A program made the position numbers and the translations under genes. DNA of 64,000 nt from Dyella silvae. Lineage in GTDB: Bacteria; Pseudomonadota; Gammaproteobacteria; Xanthomonadales; Rhodanobacteraceae. Shown piece after piece: positions 33,621 to 42,677 of this stretch. The stretch covers positions 1-64,000 of the forward strand of contig NZ_JAPJBQ010000006.1 in NCBI RefSeq assembly GCF_026421305.1. The letters run 5' to 3'. Under the pieces are notes generated by a model that saw only the letters and a program-made list of their open reading frames with translations, searched no databases and was not told where the DNA came from. Positions within the stretch are counted from its first letter, which is position 1, and every line of letters starts with the position of its first letter.

Positions 33621-33778
33621 CTAGTTTAGCGCCTCACGCCCAAACCGCCTGTCAGGCAGGTTGACGCGGACGGTGAGACAGACAGACCGCACCATGAACG
33701 AGTCATCTTGCGAACACCCCGCTGACACGTTGACCAGTGCAGTCTGTCCCCCGCTTTGACCACTCAGGAGTCCGATCC

Positions 33779-35335
33779 ATGAGCACGCCAGCCGCCCGGC
33801 ATCATCACTGGCCCTTGGCCGCCGAAGCCCGTTATCTGGGCCCGCACGAAGGTACGGAACCGATCGACGTCACGGTCGTGCTGCGCCGGCGCGGCGACCG
33901 CCCTGCAGCCGCGTCCTGGCCGCATCAGCCCGCCCAAAAGCGCGAGTCGTTCGACACGCAGTGGGGCGCCGACCCGGCGGATGCGGACAGCGTGCGCAGT
34001 TTCGCCAGCGCGCATGGCCTTACTGAAACCGGCGCCGCGCTTCATCGCCGCGCGTTGCACTTTCGTGGCACGCCGCAAGCGCTAGAGAAGGCCTTTGGTG
34101 TGCAACTGGGGCGCTACCAGTTCGACGATGGCGGCCCGGAGATGATGGGTTGTCATCAGGCGGCCACCTTGCCGGCCGAGCTGTCATCGAAAGTGATCGC
34201 GGTGCTTGGCCTGGACAAGCGCCCCGTGGCCCGGCCCCATTTTCGCCGCCCGGCAGCCACGCCCAGCGTGACGTACACGCCGGTGCAACTCGGCCAGCTC
34301 TATGGCTTTCCCGACAGCCTCGATGGCACCGGGCAAACCGTGGCGGTGATCGAACTGGGCGGTGGCTTCACCCAGAGTGATTTTACGAAGTACATCCAGT
34401 CGCTCGGCATCAGCAAGGTACCTACGGTCAACGTGGTATCCGTGGCCGGCGGCACCAGCCAGACCGGCAGCGATGCGGATGGCGAAGTGATGCTGGACGT
34501 GGAAGTGATCGGCGCGCTCGCACCCGGCGCGACGCTTGCGGTGTACTTCGCGCCGAACACCGATCAAGGGTTTTACGAAGCCATCTCGCAAGCCGCGCAT
34601 GACGCCACCAACCACCCTTCCGTCCTATCCATCAGCTGGGGCGGGCCGGAAGACAGCTGGAGTGCCGCATCGCTGGCGGCGATGGAATCGGCGATGCAAG
34701 ATGCGGCCGCCCTGGGCGTCACCATCACCGTCGCCTGCGGCGACAGCGGATTCACCGATGGCGAAAGCGACGGCAAGCCGCACGTCGATTTCCCTGCCTC
34801 CAGCCCCATGGTGCTCGCCTGCGGCGGCACCAAATTGATCGCCAGCGCCACCGCGATTACCAGCGAAACAGTGTGGAACGAGCTGGCCAGTAATGAAGGC
34901 GCGACCGGCGGCGGCGTCAGCACGCAGTTTGCGCTGCCGGCGTGGCAGCAGTCGTCCAACGTACCCAAGGGCACCAACAACTTTGTGGGACGCGGCACCC
35001 CGGACGTGGCGGGCGACGCCGACCCCACCACCGGCTATCAGGTGCTGGTGGATGGCCAGAACGAAGTCATCGGCGGCACCAGCGCTGTGGCGCCGCTATG
35101 GGCAGCGTTGATTGCGCGTTTCAACCAGCAGCTGGGACAAAGCCTGGGCGATCCGCATCAGGCGTTCTACAGCATTGGCCAAGCCGCCTTCAACGACATC
35201 ACCCAGGGCAGCAACGGCAAGTTCAAGGCCGTCAAAGGCTGGGATGCCTGCACCGGCCTGGGCACGCCCAAGGGCCAGACCTTGCTCACCGCGCTTGCCG
35301 CCATGAAGAGTGGCACGGGCACCACCAAGAGCTGA
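33779..35335 (+). CDS. pro-kumamolisin / sedolisin peptidase (S53)
   Basis: A 518-residue acid serine-carboxyl peptidase precursor. The N-terminal prodomain (about 10-150, 'LHRRALHFRGTPQALEKAFG') is removed on activation. The catalytic domain (about 165-510) has Glu236 and Asp240 ('DGEVMLDVEVIG'), oxyanion Asp322 ('ACGDSGF') and nucleophile Ser435 ('GGTSAVAPLWAAL'). The C-terminal calcium site is 'FNDITQGSNG...GWDACTGLGTP'. There is no signal peptide, as in kumamolisin itself, so its export route is unclear. CAGGAG precedes the ATG. It stands between hemB and a convergent FAH gene. Confidence 0.92.
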   Translation: MSTPAARHHHWPLAAEARYLGPHEGTEPIDVTVVLRRRGDRPAAASWPHQPAQKRESFDTQWGADPADADSVRSFASAHGLTETGAALHRRALHFRGTPQALEKAFGVQLGRYQFDDGGPEMMGCHQAATLPAELSSKVIAVLGLDKRPVARPHFRRPAATPSVTYTPVQLGQLYGFPDSLDGTGQTVAVIELGGGFTQSDFTKYIQSLGISKVPTVNVVSVAGGTSQTGSDADGEVMLDVEVIGALAPGATLAVYFAPNTDQGFYEAISQAAHDATNHPSVLSISWGGPEDSWSAASLAAMESAMQDAAALGVTITVACGDSGFTDGESDGKPHVDFPASSPMVLACGGTKLIASATAITSETVWNELASNEGATGGGVSTQFALPAWQQSSNVPKGTNNFVGRGTPDVAGDADPTTGYQVLVDGQNEVIGGTSAVAPLWAALIARFNQQLGQSLGDPHQAFYSIGQAAFNDITQGSNGKFKAVKGWDACTGLGTPKGQTLLTALAAMKSGTGTTKS

Positions 35336-36443: not shown

Positions 36444-37274
36444 ATGCCATGCGAAGGCATGAGCTACGTATCGATGACGCTTGCCGCGCCCGCAACGAAG
36501 GAACGTGCATTGGCTGCCTGCTTTTCTGCGTATCAGTACCTCACTGTCGGAGCCCATCGGCTTGCGTACCGCACGGCGGGTGACGCATCAGGCAAGCCCG
36601 TGATGTTGATCCACGCGTTCGCCAGCCAGTCCGGTAGCTGGGAGGCCGTTGCAAAAGCGCTGGCCGACGAAGGCTTTCGGATCGTTGCGCCCGATCTTCG
36701 CGGCCACGGGCGCAGTGCGCGAACTTCCACCTATGCGCTATCGGAGTTCGAGCAGGATCTCGTTGCCCTGCTCGATGCGCTCGACCTTCATGACGTCAGT
36801 CTGGTCGGCCATTCGCTTGGCGGGCATCTGGCGCTGCGGCTTGCCGCATATCAGCCCGGGCGCATTCGCAAGCTGGTGCTCGAAGCGGCTCCCGTACCTC
36901 CGCGCGACGCCGCAGAGGCGGCAGGCATAGCCGCATCACGCCCGGGCCCTGCATGGCGGCATTCGCTAAAGCTGTTGGGCATGGGCCGCCTGGTGCGTCT
37001 GCTGTTGTTGAGGCAGTTCGACCCGCGCGCGGCGCTCACCGTGCCCCGCGAGTTGCGAACGCCCATGCCGGCGTGGTGGAACCGCCTCGCCACCCTGTCA
37101 TCGCCCTGCCTGCTGCTGGCCAGCCAGAACGATGGCGCCGTCACGCAACGGCTGTCGCTATTGTCGAGCCACTTGCCCCACGCAACCGCGCACCACGTCG
37201 GCAGCGGGCATCGGCTGCACGGCGAACATACCGAAGCCTTCCTGGCGGCCGTTCTCCCTTTCTTATCCGCTTAG
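36444..37274 (+). CDS. alpha/beta hydrolase
   Basis: A 276-residue alpha/beta-hydrolase with nucleophile Ser124 ('LVGHSLGGHLAL'), probable acid Asp230 ('LLASQNDGAV') and His256 ('GSGHRLHGEH'); the oxyanion loop is 'LIHAFASQSGSW'. The start is ambiguous: in-frame ATGs occur at 36444, 36459 and 36474 without a clear ribosome site. It lies 117 bp upstream of the borosin methyltransferase on the same strand, so it may be part of that cluster (an esterase or peptidase acting on the product), or simply a neighbour. Confidence 0.82.
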   Translation: MPCEGMSYVSMTLAAPATKERALAACFSAYQYLTVGAHRLAYRTAGDASGKPVMLIHAFASQSGSWEAVAKALADEGFRIVAPDLRGHGRSARTSTYALSEFEQDLVALLDALDLHDVSLVGHSLGGHLALRLAAYQPGRIRKLVLEAAPVPPRDAAEAAGIAASRPGPAWRHSLKLLGMGRLVRLLLLRQFDPRAALTVPRELRTPMPAWWNRLATLSSPCLLLASQNDGAVTQRLSLLSSHLPHATAHHVGSGHRLHGEHTEAFLAAVLPFLSA

Positions 37275-37391
37275 ATCGTTTCAACCCGCAGCCGCACTCG
37301 CTTTCATTTCTGTTTGCCACTTATGCTGCGTTGTCATACCCAAGCGGTATGTTGAAACGCCTCTGCCTTACCCATTCCGGAGCAGATCACT

Positions 37392-38192
37392 TTGAGCACA
37401 CCCTCTTCGACCGGCAGCCTGGCCTGCGTTGGCATTGGCATCACCCTGGGGTCGCACATCACGCCGTTGGCGCGCAGTCACATCGAGAAAGCGGACGTGG
37501 TATTCGCCGCGGTTTCCGACGGCGTGGTCGAGCTATGGCTCAAGGAGATGCACCCGGACGTGCGCAGCCTTCAGCCGCTCTATGCCGAGGGCAAGCACCG
37601 CATGGAGACCTACCGCGGGATGGTCGACGCCATGCTTACCGAAGTGCGCGCAGGCAAGCGGGTGTGCGGTGTGTTCTACGGTCACCCCGGCATATTCGCC
37701 TGGGCGCCCCATCGCGCCATCAAGGTGGCCCGCGAGGAAGGCTATCCGGCGCACATGGAGCCGGGCATCTCCTCCGAAGATTGTCTGTATGCCGATCTTG
37801 GGATCGATCCAGGTGCGGCCGGCTGCCTACACTTCGAAACCACCCAGTTCATGGTCTATCGGCGAAATGTCGATCCCAGCGCCTGGCTGATTCTCTGGCA
37901 GGTGGGCCTGGCGGGAGAGCAAACTGGCCACCGCTTTGCCACCGGCCCGGCGTACCGTCAGGTGTTGGTGGACGTGCTGGCTCGTGACTATCCGGCCGAC
38001 CACGAGGTCATCATCTATTGCGCGGCTACCCTGCCCTTTCAGTCGCCGCGCATGGAGCGCATTCCGCTGTCGCAGTTGCCCCTGGCCGACCTGACAGCGG
38101 CAGAAACCCTCGCTGTGCCGCCGGCGCGCAAGCTCGAGGCCGACTCGGAAATTCAGGCACGTTTGACGGCGCTGGACCTGGTTCCAGCCTAG
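37392..38192 (+). CDS. split borosin peptide backbone alpha-N-methyltransferase (SonM/OphM-like)
   Basis: A 266-residue S-adenosylmethionine enzyme of the tetrapyrrole-methylase fold. The sequence 'GSLACVGIGITLGSHITPLA' opens it. It continues 'PLYAEGKHRMETYRGMV' (about 62-78), where Tyr64, Arg70 and Tyr74 align with catalytic Tyr66, Arg72 and Tyr76 of fungal OphMA. 'VCGVFYGHPGIFAWAPHRAI' (91-110) and 'MEPGISSEDCLYADLGIDPG' also match that family. In OphMA the precursor peptide is fused; here the enzyme ends without it, and two precursor-like genes follow, as in Shewanella SonM/SonA. The start is TTG at 37392, with CGGAGC about 8 bases upstream. It should methylate backbone amide nitrogens of the precursor tails. 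Confidence 0.88.
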   Translation: MSTPSSTGSLACVGIGITLGSHITPLARSHIEKADVVFAAVSDGVVELWLKEMHPDVRSLQPLYAEGKHRMETYRGMVDAMLTEVRAGKRVCGVFYGHPGIFAWAPHRAIKVAREEGYPAHMEPGISSEDCLYADLGIDPGAAGCLHFETTQFMVYRRNVDPSAWLILWQVGLAGEQTGHRFATGPAYRQVLVDVLARDYPADHEVIIYCAATLPFQSPRMERIPLSQLPLADLTAAETLAVPPARKLEADSEIQARLTALDLVPA

Positions 38193-38245
38193 GGTTGGAC
38201 CTCTCGCCCCTCAGGTGGGCACTCGCTATCACCAAGGCCCATATG

Positions 38246-38303
38246 GATATGAATGCCTTCTCCCAGTACTCCCCGGGGAGCGGGGAAACGGCAGTCAGGG
38301 GAG
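38246..38303 (+). promoter_or_regulatory. duplicated leader element upstream of precursor 1
   Basis: From GATATGA (38246) through GCCTTCTCCCAG, the 12-bp palindrome CTCCCCGGGGAG (38269-38280), and GTCAGGGG, this segment is about 85% identical to 38802-38859 before precursor 2. The palindrome lies 71 bp from the start codon here and 75 bp there. The match stops before the two ribosome sites, so the whole unit seems duplicated. It may be a promoter-proximal or leader-RNA control element. Confidence 0.65.
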
Positions 38304-38339
38304 CTGTGTCGCCCAACAGACCAACGGAGAAACCGAACT

Positions 38340-38633
38340 ATGCCGAGCATTATCAAGTTTCTGGAACGACTGGGTACCGACGCGCAGCTGCGCCACGCCT
38401 CGCAGGAAGAGCTTGCGAAGGCACTGGAAGAGTCGCAGGTAGACGCGGCTCTGGGCGCAGCCATCATTGCGCACAGCACGAGCGCCGATGAACTTTATGC
38501 CTTGCTGGGCCTGAGGCCCATGTTCCATACCCAGGAAAATCCGGGGCCGTGGCCATTGCCGCCGGGCGTTGCGGGCGACGTTGTAGAAAAGGAGAAACAG
38601 AAGGCCAGTCCTGCAGAGCAGGCAGCCCTCTAA
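38340..38633 (+). CDS. borosin precursor peptide 1 (SonA-like)
   Basis: A 97-residue protein. Its first 69 residues ('MPSIIKFLERLGTDAQLRHA' onward to 'ENPG') are an all-helical recognition region very like that of the neighbouring precursor and like the borosin-binding domain of split-borosin precursors (hydrophobic 'FLERLGTDAQL' helix). The remaining 28 residues ('PWPLPPGVAGDVVEKEKQKA' and the end SPAEQAAL) differ completely from precursor 2 and are the candidate core or tail. ACGGAGAA precedes the ATG. It follows the methyltransferase by 147 bp and is followed by a hairpin. Confidence 0.8.
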   Translation: MPSIIKFLERLGTDAQLRHASQEELAKALEESQVDAALGAAIIAHSTSADELYALLGLRPMFHTQENPGPWPLPPGVAGDVVEKEKQKASPAEQAAL

Positions 38634-38648
38634 CCTCGCCCAGGTAGT

Positions 38649-38671
38649 GTGGAGGGGGTCCCCCCTCCACT
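38649..38671 (+). terminator. GC-rich hairpin after precursor 1
   Basis: GTGGAGGG at 38649-38656 pairs with CCCTCCAC at 38663-38670 around a 6-base loop, followed by TTT. It lies 15 bp after the precursor 1 stop and would limit read-through into precursor 2, which has its own leader copy. Confidence 0.6.
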
Positions 38672-38801
38672 TTCGGCAATAGCCTGGCCCGCCCCAACCC
38701 GGCACTCAAGGTCTCGCCCTTTGCTGCTCAGCTTCTTGCGCCGAAGCGACCTTCAAAGGCCATACGAAAGTGTCTTGTAGACATTTTTGACCGCGAAGGG
38801 C

Positions 38802-38859
38802 GATATGATCGCCTTCTCCCAGCACTCCCCGGGGAGAGGGGAACGGCAAGTCAGGGGGG
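38802..38859 (+). promoter_or_regulatory. duplicated leader element upstream of precursor 2
   Basis: Second copy of the segment at 38246-38303, with the same 23-base distance from GATATGA to the palindrome CTCCCCGGGGAG (38825-38836). It lies in the 266-bp gap between the two precursor genes. Confidence 0.65.
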
Positions 38860-38899
38860 GTGTTGTCTTTCTTTCAAGACCATCAGGGGAACACAAGCC

Positions 38900-39208
38900 A
38901 TGTCGAGCGTCATCGAGTTTTTGGAGCGCCTGGGTACCGACGCGCAACTGCGTCATGCACCGCAAGAGGACCTTGCGCGGGCATTGGAAGATTCACAGGT
39001 CGACGCCGCTCTCGGCGCCGCCATCATTGCCCGTAGCACCGATGATCTTTACGCCCTGCTGGACGTAAGGCCCATGTTCAAGACCATCGAGAATCCTGGC
39101 CGAGAAGGCGAAGAGGAAGAAGAAGAGGGCGATGGCGAGGAAGGCGAGGAGCAAAGCGCTCTGAACGCACCTGTGGTGGGCCGACGCGCCGCCATCGCGC
39201 CCGTCTGA
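38900..39208 (+). CDS. borosin precursor peptide 2 (SonA-like)
   Basis: A 102-residue protein. Residues 1-67 ('MSSVIEFLERLGTDAQLRHA' to 'ENPG') are about 80% identical to precursor 1. The tail is different: an acidic linker (about 69-84, mostly Glu with Asp and Gly) and then 'QSALNAPVVGRRAAIAPV', a short hydrophobic, Ala/Val-rich end of the sort backbone methyltransferases act on. AGGGGA precedes the ATG. The leader/tail contrast between paralogues is a hallmark of RiPP precursors. The modified stretch and any processing site are inferred, not seen. Confidence 0.8.
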   Translation: MSSVIEFLERLGTDAQLRHAPQEDLARALEDSQVDAALGAAIIARSTDDLYALLDVRPMFKTIENPGREGEEEEEEGDGEEGEEQSALNAPVVGRRAAIAPV

Positions 39209-39216
39209 GCAGGCCC

Positions 39217-41067
39217 GTGCTCCGGCTTGGCACAACGAGTCGGAAGTGGCTAGGGAGCCTCATCGCTCTCGTGGGTATCTGTGCGGGCATGGCCGTAAAC
39301 GCCATGCCCGCCAACGAAACGCCCGAGCAATTGCTTGAGCGCGCATCCAGCATCAAAACTTCGGACCACGACGGGTTCCTACGGATACTCACGCAGCTCC
39401 ACCAGATGGAGAGCAACCTGCCGCAGGACCAGCAATGGTCTCTGCGCATTCTCGATGCATGGCAGGCGGATTTCGAAGGAAACGATTCGCAGGCCATTCC
39501 CGCGCTGCGGATGATCGCCGACCAGGCATCCAGCCCCGCATTGCGCCTGCGGGCGCTTGCTATGATGGTCAACATCTTCGGGTTTACGCATCACTACGAA
39601 GAGGCCTTCATCCAGTTCAACCGCCTGACCGAGCTGCTGCCTCAGGTCTCGGACAAGGGCGCGCGTTATGCAGCCCTGGGTGAAGCGGCCCAACTGCTCA
39701 TCTTCTCGCACCACTACAAGCAGGCTCTCGAGTACGCCGATCAAATGCTGGAGAACGTACCGCCGGGCAAGAACGCCTGCCACGCGGCGCGTTACCGGCT
39801 GCAGGCATTGGTCCATGGCGGCGATGCACAGCTGACGCCAAGCCAGTTCCAGGAGGGCATCGACCTGTGCATGCAGGACAACGATTTGATTTATGCCAAC
39901 GCCATGCGCGAAGACATGGCGGCATTCCTCCTGCAAAAGAACCGTGCCGCCGAGGCCATCCGGATCGTGCAGGAACACTACGCCGAGGTGCGCGATTACA
40001 ACTTTCCCTCCCAAATGCAGTACTCCAACCTGCTTTTGGCGCAAGGCTATTTCAGCCAGGGGGATCTTCCCGCCGCGCGCAAATTTGCGCTCGCAAGCAT
40101 CGAGAACAATGTAGAGAGCTCCTATAGTGAACTGCTGAGCAAAGCTTTCGAGCTGCTGTACCGGATCGAGAGCCGGCTTGGTCACACCGCCGACGCACTG
40201 GCCTTCCACGAAAAGTACATGACGGCAGACAAGGGCTACCTCAGCGAGGTAACCGCAGGTGCGCTGGCCTACGAGACGGTCAAGCAGCAGGTGCAGGCGC
40301 AGAAGAGTCAGGTCGACACGCTCAATCGCCAGAACCAGATCCTGCAGCTGCAACGCCAGCTCGACCATAAAGCCATGGAAACCAGCCGGGCATACATTAC
40401 TTTGCTGCTGACCGTACTCGCCTCCATCGCGTTCTGGCTGATGCGCACCAAGCGCTCGCAATTGCGCTTCAAGCGGCTGGCCACACAAGACAGCCTCACC
40501 CGCATCTGCAGCCGGCAGCATTTCGTCGATGAAGCTGAAATCGTGCTGCGGCAAGCGGCGCGATCCACCCGCAGCGTTTGCCTGATGCTGATGGATCTGG
40601 ACCACTTCAAGCAGGTCAACGACACGCACGGCCACCTGATCGGCGACCTCGTGCTCAAGCGTGCCGTGGATGCCTGTCAGCAGCACCTGGGCCGCTGCGA
40701 TATTTTCGGGCGCCTCGGTGGTGAAGAGTTTGCCGTGCTGATGCCCGACTGCACGGCACGCGAGGCGCGGGATCGTGCCGAGCGGCTTCGCCAGGCGATT
40801 GCCGCTACGCCCATCTGGGGCGAGACGCGTCACGTGGTGATTTCGGCGAGCTTCGGCGTGGCCTCGACGGACCGCAGCGGCTACGAGCTGCGCCAGCTGA
40901 TGATCGATGCCGACAACGCGCTATACCAGGCCAAGCGCGATGGGCGTAATCGCGTGATCTACAGTGGTCGTGGCGACGTCGTCCCGCCTGCTGATGGCGC
41001 GTCCGCACAGGCTACGGAAGAAGATGGTGTTGCGGACGTACCGCACTACCCGGAGTCCGCTCGCTAA
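39217..41067 (+). CDS. membrane diguanylate cyclase (GGDEF) with TPR-like sensor region
   Basis: A 616-residue protein that should make cyclic di-GMP. A signal sequence or N-terminal helix (about 10-30) leads into an alpha-helical repeat region (about 35-385, TPR-like), then a coiled segment, one membrane helix (about 393-412) and a GGDEF domain (about 445-595). The active site is GGEEF at 501-505 ('RLGGEEFAVLMPD'). The usual RxxD inhibitory site is absent (GRCD at that place). The start is GTG at 39217, only 8 bases after the precursor 2 stop, so co-transcription with the borosin genes is likely. The C-terminus overlaps the convergent ArnT-like gene by 4 bases. Confidence 0.85.
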   Translation: MLRLGTTSRKWLGSLIALVGICAGMAVNAMPANETPEQLLERASSIKTSDHDGFLRILTQLHQMESNLPQDQQWSLRILDAWQADFEGNDSQAIPALRMIADQASSPALRLRALAMMVNIFGFTHHYEEAFIQFNRLTELLPQVSDKGARYAALGEAAQLLIFSHHYKQALEYADQMLENVPPGKNACHAARYRLQALVHGGDAQLTPSQFQEGIDLCMQDNDLIYANAMREDMAAFLLQKNRAAEAIRIVQEHYAEVRDYNFPSQMQYSNLLLAQGYFSQGDLPAARKFALASIENNVESSYSELLSKAFELLYRIESRLGHTADALAFHEKYMTADKGYLSEVTAGALAYETVKQQVQAQKSQVDTLNRQNQILQLQRQLDHKAMETSRAYITLLLTVLASIAFWLMRTKRSQLRFKRLATQDSLTRICSRQHFVDEAEIVLRQAARSTRSVCLMLMDLDHFKQVNDTHGHLIGDLVLKRAVDACQQHLGRCDIFGRLGGEEFAVLMPDCTAREARDRAERLRQAIAATPIWGETRHVVISASFGVASTDRSGYELRQLMIDADNALYQAKRDGRNRVIYSGRGDVVPPADGASAQATEEDGVADVPHYPESAR

Positions 41068-42677
41068 TCGCCCTGCGGCGTGGGGGAGCGATCCAGCGCC
41101 GACGCATTCGCCTGCACCACCCGCGCGGGCAGCAGCCCCACCCAGCCATTGGCCAGCTTCACCACGTTCTCGGTACCTGCCGGTGCTGCGCCACGGCCGG
41201 AGTACGTCAGCAGCACACCATCGGGATGCTGTTGCGCCCATGCAGCGGGATCGGCAGCTTCGGGCAAAGGTTCCGGCAGGCGGGCGAGGAAGGTCACCAA
41301 CCCGGGCTCGCCTTGCGTACGCGCCATGGGCACGCCCTGCGCATGCAACTGAGCCACGCGCTGCGCAATGTCCCGCACGTCCAGCGAGCCCAGCACCTGC
41401 AGGCGTACCAGTGGCAGCAAGGCCAGCGCGAGCAGCAGCGCGACGGTCCCCGCTCTACGCTCAATGCGGATATCGCGGCCACTCAACGCGAGATACGCAC
41501 AAGCCACGATCAGCATCACGCTGCTCAGGCCATACAGCCACAGCTCAGTACTGCGCTGCATGACGCCACGCCCCAACGGCTCGTGGCCCAACATGGCCCA
41601 CAGCAGTACGCCTGCAACGACGGCCACCAGCACCCATAGCCGGCGAATGGCCAGCAAGGCGGCATCGCTTCTCACCCAGGCACCGAGCAGCACCGCCACA
41701 CCCGGCAGCAGGGGCAACAGGTAGTGCGGCTGCTTACCGCTGACAAAACAGAACGCAACAAAAGCCGGTACGGAGGCGCACAAACCAAAACGCGCGGCGC
41801 GCGAAGTGCGCCAGACGCCCGCCGCCGCACCGATGCGGCGCCAGCGCAACACTAGCGGCCAGGGCAACAGCAGCACCGGCACCAACGGCAGGTACCACCA
41901 GACCGGGCGATTGTGCGCGAAGCTCTTCACCATGCGACCGGCGGTCTGGCGCAACAACAGGTTCTGCGCGTCGGCAGCGCTCAGCGTATGCACGGCACCC
42001 CAGGCCCAGGCCAGTACCGGCAGTGCGCCCAACAACACCACCAGCATCATCACGCCGACGCGGCGCCACGAGACGCGCGGCGCACCGGCCGACCACCACG
42101 GCGCCGCCAACAGCGGTGCCGCCAGATGCAACAGCATCACCGGTCCCTTGGCGAGCAAACCGAGCGCGGATGCAACGAAGAGCAGACCCAGTGCGCCGCG
42201 CCGCCCTTCCTGCACGTAACTGACGATGGCGAGAAAGCCCATCAGCACGCACGCGCACAACAGCACGTCGAACATCACCACGCCGGTGTACAGATCCAGA
42301 AAGATCAGGCCCAGCAGCATCCACGCGGCCTGCCCCGAGGCATCCGGCGCGAGACGGCGCTCCACGCGTTCGCACAACGCCACGCAGGCGACGCCGCAAA
42401 GCATCACCAGCACGCGGGACGACCACAGCGACATGCCCAGCACACTCCAGCTGGCGTTCAACAGCCAGAACAGCAGCGGCGGCTTGTCGAAGTAAGGCAT
42501 GCCATTCAGATGCAGCGTCACCCAGCTACCGGTCTGACGCATTTCCCAGGCGATGCTCAGGTAGCGCGTTTCGTCGATGGGAACCGGCGGCAATACGGCC
42601 AGCAACGGCAACAACAACAGCAGCCAGAGTGCCGGTGGAATGTGCAGCTGACCGTCGCGGCGGAACCAGGCGTTCAT
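41064..42677 (-). CDS. ArnT-like lipid-linked-sugar glycosyltransferase (GT-C)
   Basis: A 537-residue inner-membrane protein with about 12 helices. The first periplasmic loop has 'PIDETRYLSIAWEMRQTGSW' (the Asp-Glu pair of the PMT/ArnT family) and 'PYFDKPPLLFWL', followed by 'LLAKGPVMLLHLAAPLL' and 'SGKQPHYLLPLLPGVAVLLG', all typical of polyprenyl-phosphate sugar transferases such as ArnT. It probably adds a sugar to lipid A or another envelope acceptor. Other arn genes are absent here, so the donor is uncertain. It follows the RND operon after a strong hairpin. Confidence 0.82.
   Translation of the reverse strand: MNAWFRRDGQLHIPPALWLLLLLPLLAVLPPVPIDETRYLSIAWEMRQTGSWVTLHLNGMPYFDKPPLLFWLLNASWSVLGMSLWSSRVLVMLCGVACVALCERVERRLAPDASGQAAWMLLGLIFLDLYTGVVMFDVLLCACVLMGFLAIVSYVQEGRRGALGLLFVASALGLLAKGPVMLLHLAAPLLAAPWWSAGAPRVSWRRVGVMMLVVLLGALPVLAWAWGAVHTLSAADAQNLLLRQTAGRMVKSFAHNRPVWWYLPLVPVLLLPWPLVLRWRRIGAAAGVWRTSRAARFGLCASVPAFVAFCFVSGKQPHYLLPLLPGVAVLLGAWVRSDAALLAIRRLWVLVAVVAGVLLWAMLGHEPLGRGVMQRSTELWLYGLSSVMLIVACAYLALSGRDIRIERRAGTVALLLALALLPLVRLQVLGSLDVRDIAQRVAQLHAQGVPMARTQGEPGLVTFLARLPEPLPEAADPAAWAQQHPDGVLLTYSGRGAAPAGTENVVKLANGWVGLLPARVVQANASALDRSPTPQGD

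Follow-up and report, generated by a model that had tools for sequence, protein, structure and literature searches.

The region at positions 37,392 to 39,208 of the window (the whole analyzed stretch of 64,000 nucleotides, from Dyella silvae, a soil bacterium belonging to the Rhodanobacteraceae) raises the question of which peptide system is encoded by a methylase-like gene that is followed by two small genes, and what the product of such a system may be used for. A sequence-only reading had proposed a split borosin system, in which one enzyme N-methylates the backbone of separately encoded peptides. The three reading frames on which this proposal was built were all present, namely a 266-amino-acid enzyme with a TTG start (37392..38192, + strand) and two small proteins of 97 amino acids (38340..38633, + strand) and 102 amino acids (38900..39208, + strand). 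The enzyme is a predicted split borosin alpha-N-methyltransferase of the SonM family. Indeed, when it was compared with borosin methyltransferases, as had been advised, its closest match in phmmer searches was SonM (7ltc_A; E 1.4e-77), followed by the fungal enzymes dbOphM and OphMA (E about 1e-52 to 1e-48), and the Pfam family TP_methylase was recognized (E 1.9e-20). The catalytic residues Tyr64, Arg70 and Tyr74 that had been pointed out earlier are in place, as is Y96, and these four align with Y58, R67, Y71 and Y93 of SonM, residues whose mutation slows the latter enzyme (PMC8429565, section 'Kinetic parameters'). Similarly, the quoted block GVFYGHPGIFAWAPHRA corresponds to residues 93-109, and the reading frame closes at residue 266 (38192) without a clasp or core, the precursors being separate at 38340 and 38900, so that the claim of an enzyme without fused precursor holds. 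Cobalamin or siroheme methylases as best matches had been named as the outcome that would speak against a borosin. These enzymes share the Pfam superfamily TP_methylase with the enzyme of the window, but the best cobalamin-pathway chain reached an E-value of merely 1.3e-3, compared with 1.4e-77 for SonM, and the seven NCBIfam models that matched (mostly cobalamin methylases) had cut-offs of 92.9 to 525, of which the enzyme fell far short with its 11.9 to 32.9 bits. In addition, SonA-family precursors adjoin the enzyme. A tetrapyrrole methylase beside unrelated small proteins is hence extremely improbable, and this identity of 37392-38192 was ruled out by the phmmer E-values and NCBIfam scores. 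The split borosin reading held, with a SonM/OphMA homologue that retains the catalytic residues and with small proteins of the SonA family, and the region 37392-39208 is, judged by homology, a type IV split borosin enzyme-precursor pair that forms a new member of a known family.

Both small proteins carry the putative borosin binding domain followed by a core and a tail. Precursor 1 consists of this domain (about residues 1-57), the core PMFHTQENPG, and a tail without an acidic run; precursor 2, the copy adjacent to the sensor gene described below, consists of the domain (five predicted helices, residues 3-54), the core PMFKTIENPG, and an acidic tail. A common N-terminal domain with differing tails, as noted earlier, was thus borne out, and the two genes are tandem duplicates (38246-38545 versus 38802-39099, 76.7% over 305 columns), the upstream leader DNA included. 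Single-sequence phmmer searches with precursor 1 or precursor 2 did not find SonA, but a profile built from 26 of 44 distinct precursors retrieved seven SonA sequences by their leader domain (E 1.6e-5 to 1e-4), in agreement with the SonA-type relationship that had been suggested. The AlphaFold2 model of precursor 2 displayed helices at residues 3-13, 15-18, 22-31, 36-43 and 47-54, and the leader domain of SonA likewise consists of five helices (PMC8429565). The top Foldseek matches of this model were SonA chains (probability 0.99; TM 0.72 by target), with weak E-values (0.31 and above). In the nearest relatives, the core that follows the leader has the consensus P-M-F-x-x-x-x-N-P-G, and an acidic tail comes next in most of the family. 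SonA is methylated at residues 63 and 65 (PMC8429565); since the profile alignment to SonA is gapless over residues 1-54, the core of the precursors (57-66) lies in register with these methylated residues. Matches to the NHLP-related model TIGR04509 (E 0.07-0.09) and, through the acidic tail, to DUF4611 and Ermin in Pfam/NCBIfam searches with the precursors were judged to be due to chance. Similar small genes are located beside nearly all enzymes of the relatives, and most sister loci contain a single precursor, compared with which two substrates for one enzyme, as plausibly present in the window, would be unusual. Leader and core of precursor 1 are most like those of the precursor in locus L047 of genome G001.

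The DNA ahead of the precursor genes may, by inference, be regulatory. The leader DNA of precursor 2 (38778..38899, + strand) is conserved (77% mean column identity, n = 10 leaders) and contains the palindrome CTCCCCGGGGAG at 38825-38836; the leader DNA of precursor 1 (38246..38339, + strand), duplicated along with the gene, contains it at 38269-38280. The palindrome occurs twice in the window, once ahead of each precursor. The leader of precursor 2 belonged to no Rfam family and displayed no unusual RNA folding (z 0.53), Rfam searches of 37200-39400 yielded a single microRNA match that was below the gathering score and was judged to be due to chance, and neither a terminator nor a convincing promoter was found in 37200-41200.

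The region as delimited earlier, 37392-39208, ends one gene before what looks like the functional unit, to which a TPR-GGDEF gene that the sequence-only reading had missed appears to belong. This gene (39217..41067, + strand; GTG start 8 bp past precursor 2) encodes a receptor-like protein of 616 amino acids (Pfam GGDEF, E 2.3e-41), in which an N-terminal signal-peptide-like segment and a TPR superhelix are followed by a membrane helix at about residues 390-411 and by a GGDEF domain whose GGEEF motif (residue 501) is intact. It is a predicted diguanylate cyclase and should have a second messenger as output. Its hydropathy profile has two peaks alone (11-33 and 390-411), and the TPR superhelix is apparently periplasmic. 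The aligned sensors share two invariant cysteines, as expected for a periplasmic domain. An AlphaFold2 model of the sensor (10 sequences; pLDDT 90.8) was entirely helical, forming a superhelix whose long C-terminal helix points toward the membrane. Its fold matches were TPR proteins, with LGN as the best match, and the majority were unrelated proteins of this kind with an rmsd of 5-12 A. Peptide receptors were among these matches, namely Rap-CSF (4gyo, E 2.5e-5) and NprR-NprX (4gpk, E 9.5e-5). This similarity in overall fold to receptors of the RRNPP family (Rap, NprR) accords with the peptide recognition proposed here for the sensor of the window, which differs from them in being membrane-anchored, apparently periplasmic, and provided with a GGDEF output. 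The RRNPP proteins are cytoplasmic TPR receptors of unmodified, re-imported peptides. Membership of the sensor in that family was rejected, as it has a signal-like segment and a membrane helix before the GGDEF domain and only the TPR fold is held in common.

The sensor accompanies the enzyme and precursors in many genomes. With the first 388 residues of the sensor as query (GGDEF domain excluded), enzyme and sensor part were found in the same 40 of 61 relatives' genomes, and a sensor on the same strand was present within 3 kb of 54 of the 59 enzyme places in these relatives (62 matches minus three at E 5e-4 to 8e-4). Enzyme, precursor and sensor occurred together in 37 of the 40 second-locus regions fetched. 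In seven genomes outside this set (Shewanella, Rheinheimera, Neiella and others), a sensor was located at most 1.3 kb from each of the nine enzyme places, and the linkage was kept in Rheinheimera with a changed gene order (precursors, sensor, enzyme). Similarly, all 49 enzyme places in 40 Shewanella genomes had a same-strand sensor at a distance of 267-1040 bp, and all 34 Shewanella loci fetched or read contained the enzyme, a SonA-like precursor, and the sensor; locus L111 of Shewanella sp. HN-41 encodes a SonM (E 6.4e-168) and a SonA (E 8.3e-39) that are near-identical to the crystallized pair, with the sensor next. Four of these 34 sensors (L121, L138, L143 and L144), although beside SonM-type enzymes, have a missing or degenerate GGDEF motif or a truncated domain, indicating that some Shewanella sensors may no longer be cyclases. 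Across 299 genomes of the order, both enzyme and sensor were found in 137, the enzyme only in 7, the sensor only in 19, and neither in 136, among the matches listed and with kinship ignored. In 274 genomes spread across the class, the genome of the window alone had the sensor, and four other class members had a more distant enzyme (27-41% identity) without sensor, in both cases among the matches listed; at most six candidates per genome were scored in the profile searches at order and class level. The sensor family hardly occurs outside enzyme-bearing genomes. Regarding the 19 sensor-only genomes (enzyme cut-off E 1e-20), many are incomplete assemblies of one family (f10), and their enzyme may have diverged or been lost, or may lie outside the assembled sequence.

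A precursor and a sensor can also occur together without an adjacent enzyme. Sixteen sensor places in the relatives had no enzyme within 4 kb, and in 12 of the 14 that were fetched a precursor was present upstream on the same strand, one of them with a broken start (L060); locus L058 seemingly contained just a precursor remnant. All 13 genomes with such enzyme-less sensor loci possessed the enzyme elsewhere, and in the genus of the window each of them keeps it at a second locus. The enzyme-less loci of this genus show synteny with the window, so that they correspond to it except for the missing enzyme gene. Precursor-sensor pairs persist without a local enzyme while an enzyme is encoded elsewhere in the genome, for which action of that enzyme in trans would be the simplest explanation. 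The genome of the window itself harbors a second split borosin locus (G000 contig C11, L070 3535-5495), with an enzyme that is 61% identical and two precursor-like frames but no sensor. In the genus of the window, to which Dyella sp. ASV21 belongs as well, locus L005 of that strain and contig C13 of genome G017 share one and the same precursor. The precursors of four sensor-less loci (L070, L081, L083 and L085) lack an acidic tail. A tie between acidic tail and sensor was nevertheless rejected, as precursor 1 and the Shewanella precursors have no such tail and yet have a sensor. The precursors of the sensor-less enzyme loci L081 (3150-3431) and L083 (1397-1852) share the odd ending VQLFAVQL and perhaps represent a different borosin subtype.

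The sensor domain is the fast-varying part of the locus. Over 20 loci syntenic with the window, its identity to the window was 44-76%, compared with 72-86% for the GGDEF domain, 77-84% for the enzyme, and 92-95, 71-81 and 82-90% for the flanking genes, and the closest sensors belonged to loci sharing the core of precursor 2 (L049, 76%). In the window-type family (18 of these 20 loci, L058 being left out for want of an intact precursor and L054 because of a contig end, and the sensor-adjacent precursor being used for the two-precursor loci, the window and L055), core distance correlated with sensor distance (rho 0.867), and with a flanking gene, the leader, and the GGDEF domain held constant, the correlation was 0.777 (0/2000 permutations). 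Core versus enzyme, with a raw value of 0.777 (12 loci), dropped to 0.153 given the rest (289/2000), and the values given the rest were 0.251 for leader versus sensor (139/2000) and a non-significant 0.196 for leader versus enzyme (256/2000). Sliding 9-mers located the peak on residues 57-65 (0.85), versus at most 0.64 in the leader, near zero in the acidic run, and up to 0.60 in a stretch of the C-terminal tail. A second family (26 of 40 regions, after omission of three without sensor and 11 with another core type) displayed a core-sensor correlation of 0.282 given the GGDEF domain, the enzyme and the leader (0/2000; core of L100 four residues out of register in this test, in register for the sliding 9-mers). 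Its remaining values were 0.037 for core versus enzyme (655/2000) and, given the rest, 0.181 for leader versus sensor (89/2000) and 0.294 for leader versus enzyme (0/2000), and the 9-mers had their maximum on the core (0.49), versus at most 0.33 in the leader. In these two locus families, no other precursor segment follows the sensor sequence as closely as the core does, and this goes beyond the linked controls. In Shewanella (30 of 34 loci, the four without GGDEF motif being dropped), the whole precursor tracks the sensor: the correlation given the rest was 0.654 for leader versus sensor (0/1000), 0.321 for core versus sensor, and 0.285 for leader versus enzyme (9/1000). Because the leader tracks the sensor more than the core does, core specificity is not seen in that genus. 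All these Mantel permutations ignore phylogeny, and joint inheritance of precursor and sensor as a block can add to the correlation, as the two genes are adjacent and the within-gene controls reduce this effect but do not remove it.

From this co-variation, it would seem that the modified peptide serves as a signal to the co-encoded sensor. We infer, with the balance tilting modestly in favor, that the type IV split borosin operon is a peptide-receptor signaling unit in which the methylated core is the ligand of the receptor diguanylate cyclase. The stand-alone methyltransferase would bind the helical leader of each precursor and N-methylate the peptide backbone in the short core (residues about 57-66), whereupon the product would be released by a protease encoded outside the unit and would reach the periplasm; backbone methylation favors membrane permeability (PMC8429565). 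In the periplasm, the product would be bound by the TPR superhelix of the membrane protein encoded alongside, which would set the activity of its GGDEF domain and thereby the amount of cyclic di-GMP. The sequences show the families to which the enzyme (with its catalytic residues) and the precursors belong, the order of the genes in the operon, the conserved linkage to the sensor, and the co-variation of core and sensor, whereas methylation in Dyella silvae, core cleavage, membrane crossing, binding, and cyclase control are presumed. Several observations count against a signaling unit. The precursors have no signal peptide, the unit contains a gene for neither an exporter nor a protease, the similarity of the TPR fold is generic (LGN being the best match), and some genomes have one partner only (7 with enzyme, 19 with sensor, of 299, among the matches listed). 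Further points of this kind are the enzyme loci without sensor (the second locus of the window's genome and those of the four distant class members), the four of 34 Shewanella sensors without GGDEF motif or cut short, the stronger co-variation of leader than core in Shewanella, and the value of 0.60 that the C-terminal tail also reaches in the window-type family.

Two other functions could account for the same genes. The cyclase might be regulated by the whole (methylated) precursor, leader included, instead of by a released core. Such a role fits the predominance of the leader over the core in the 30 Shewanella loci, as well as a unit that encodes no protease and the short core that follows the leader domain of SonA; it is nevertheless unlikely, as the core tracks the sensor best in the two other families, where leader versus sensor was weak, and as precursors without export signal would have to meet a TPR domain that is apparently outside the membrane. 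Alternatively, the locus might produce an ordinary borosin natural product, for instance an antimicrobial or metal-binding peptide, with a cyclase in the operon that answers an unrelated stimulus. Cyclase genes are common neighbors in general. Moreover, split borosins are without known product or role according to the discussion of PMC8429565. We hold this explanation to be rather improbable too, given a sensor family that is nearly confined to enzyme genomes, a sensor TPR part whose variation goes with that of the core rather than with that of the flanking genes, and precursors and sensors that stay paired where the enzyme is gone. The reading of the methylated core as ligand of the sensor can be widened to backbone-N-methylated ribosomal peptides as signals in general, each core having a matching TPR receptor in the periplasm for the control of cyclic di-GMP, with one methyltransferase serving several such pairs in trans and the pairs diversifying like pheromone systems; for this wider proposal the chances seem evenly divided.

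The best-described counterpart is SonM-SonA of Shewanella oneidensis (PMC8429565; PDB 7ltc), a type IV split borosin that likewise has a separate methyltransferase without clasp, the same catalytic residues, and, next to the enzyme, a precursor whose borosin binding domain has five helices and is followed by a short core; a TPR-GGDEF gene is directly next in the near-identical locus of Shewanella sp. HN-41. The window differs from it by a side-clamp loop of the enzyme that is three residues shorter, by two precursors with the cores PMFHTQENPG and PMFKTIENPG instead of the SonA core SYLVISHG, and by the acidic tail in which precursor 2 ends. Its sensor is distantly related to the SonM-type sensors, which scored 88 to 148 bits with the profile, whereas sensors of the nearer type scored at least 490 bits. 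Another split borosin methyltransferase is SahM (PMC11285071) from Shewanella sp. HN-41; this organism carries the loci L012 and L111, the enzyme of either being a candidate for SahM, and the L012 enzyme is 56% identical to that of the window. The fused fungal borosins OphMA and dbOphMA are homologous to the enzyme of the window in their catalytic domain (E about 1e-52 to 1e-48), but their core is fused to the enzyme, whereas enzyme and core are separate in the window. As GGDEF is named in the legend of Figure 1 of PMC11395268, its adjacency has, for one borosin type or more, already been published at least in part. No paper joining borosins with diguanylate cyclases was found in a search that covered few subscription papers and no supplements. 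As of 2021, no type IV pathway was tied to a final natural product according to the text of PMC8429565. If true, the proposed signaling would be the first proposed biological role for bacterial split borosins, SonM-SonA included, and an apparently new class of peptide signals that act through cyclic di-GMP. With the gene of a receptor-like cyclase coming after that of the enzyme, and with its product varying along with the core, the function of split borosins becomes directly testable in a laboratory species, Shewanella oneidensis, in which the sensor gene is presumed to be present from the near-identical locus L111.

A wider unit that would include the neighboring genes, which we take from their sequences to be hemB, an S53 peptidase, a FAH-type hydrolase, an alpha/beta hydrolase, a glycosyltransferase-like gene and an RND gene, was considered and rejected. 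These flanks are judged not to belong to the unit, as they occur genus-wide but were not found at the outside loci L006-L012 (seven loci, flanks up to 4 kb). Pfam searches were run on three proteins of the region beside the precursors, namely the hydrolase, the methyltransferase, and the GGDEF protein. The reading frame at 33737-35335, presumably an S53 (sedolisin) peptidase, is conserved nearby in the genus and is a conceivable candidate for the leader peptidase.
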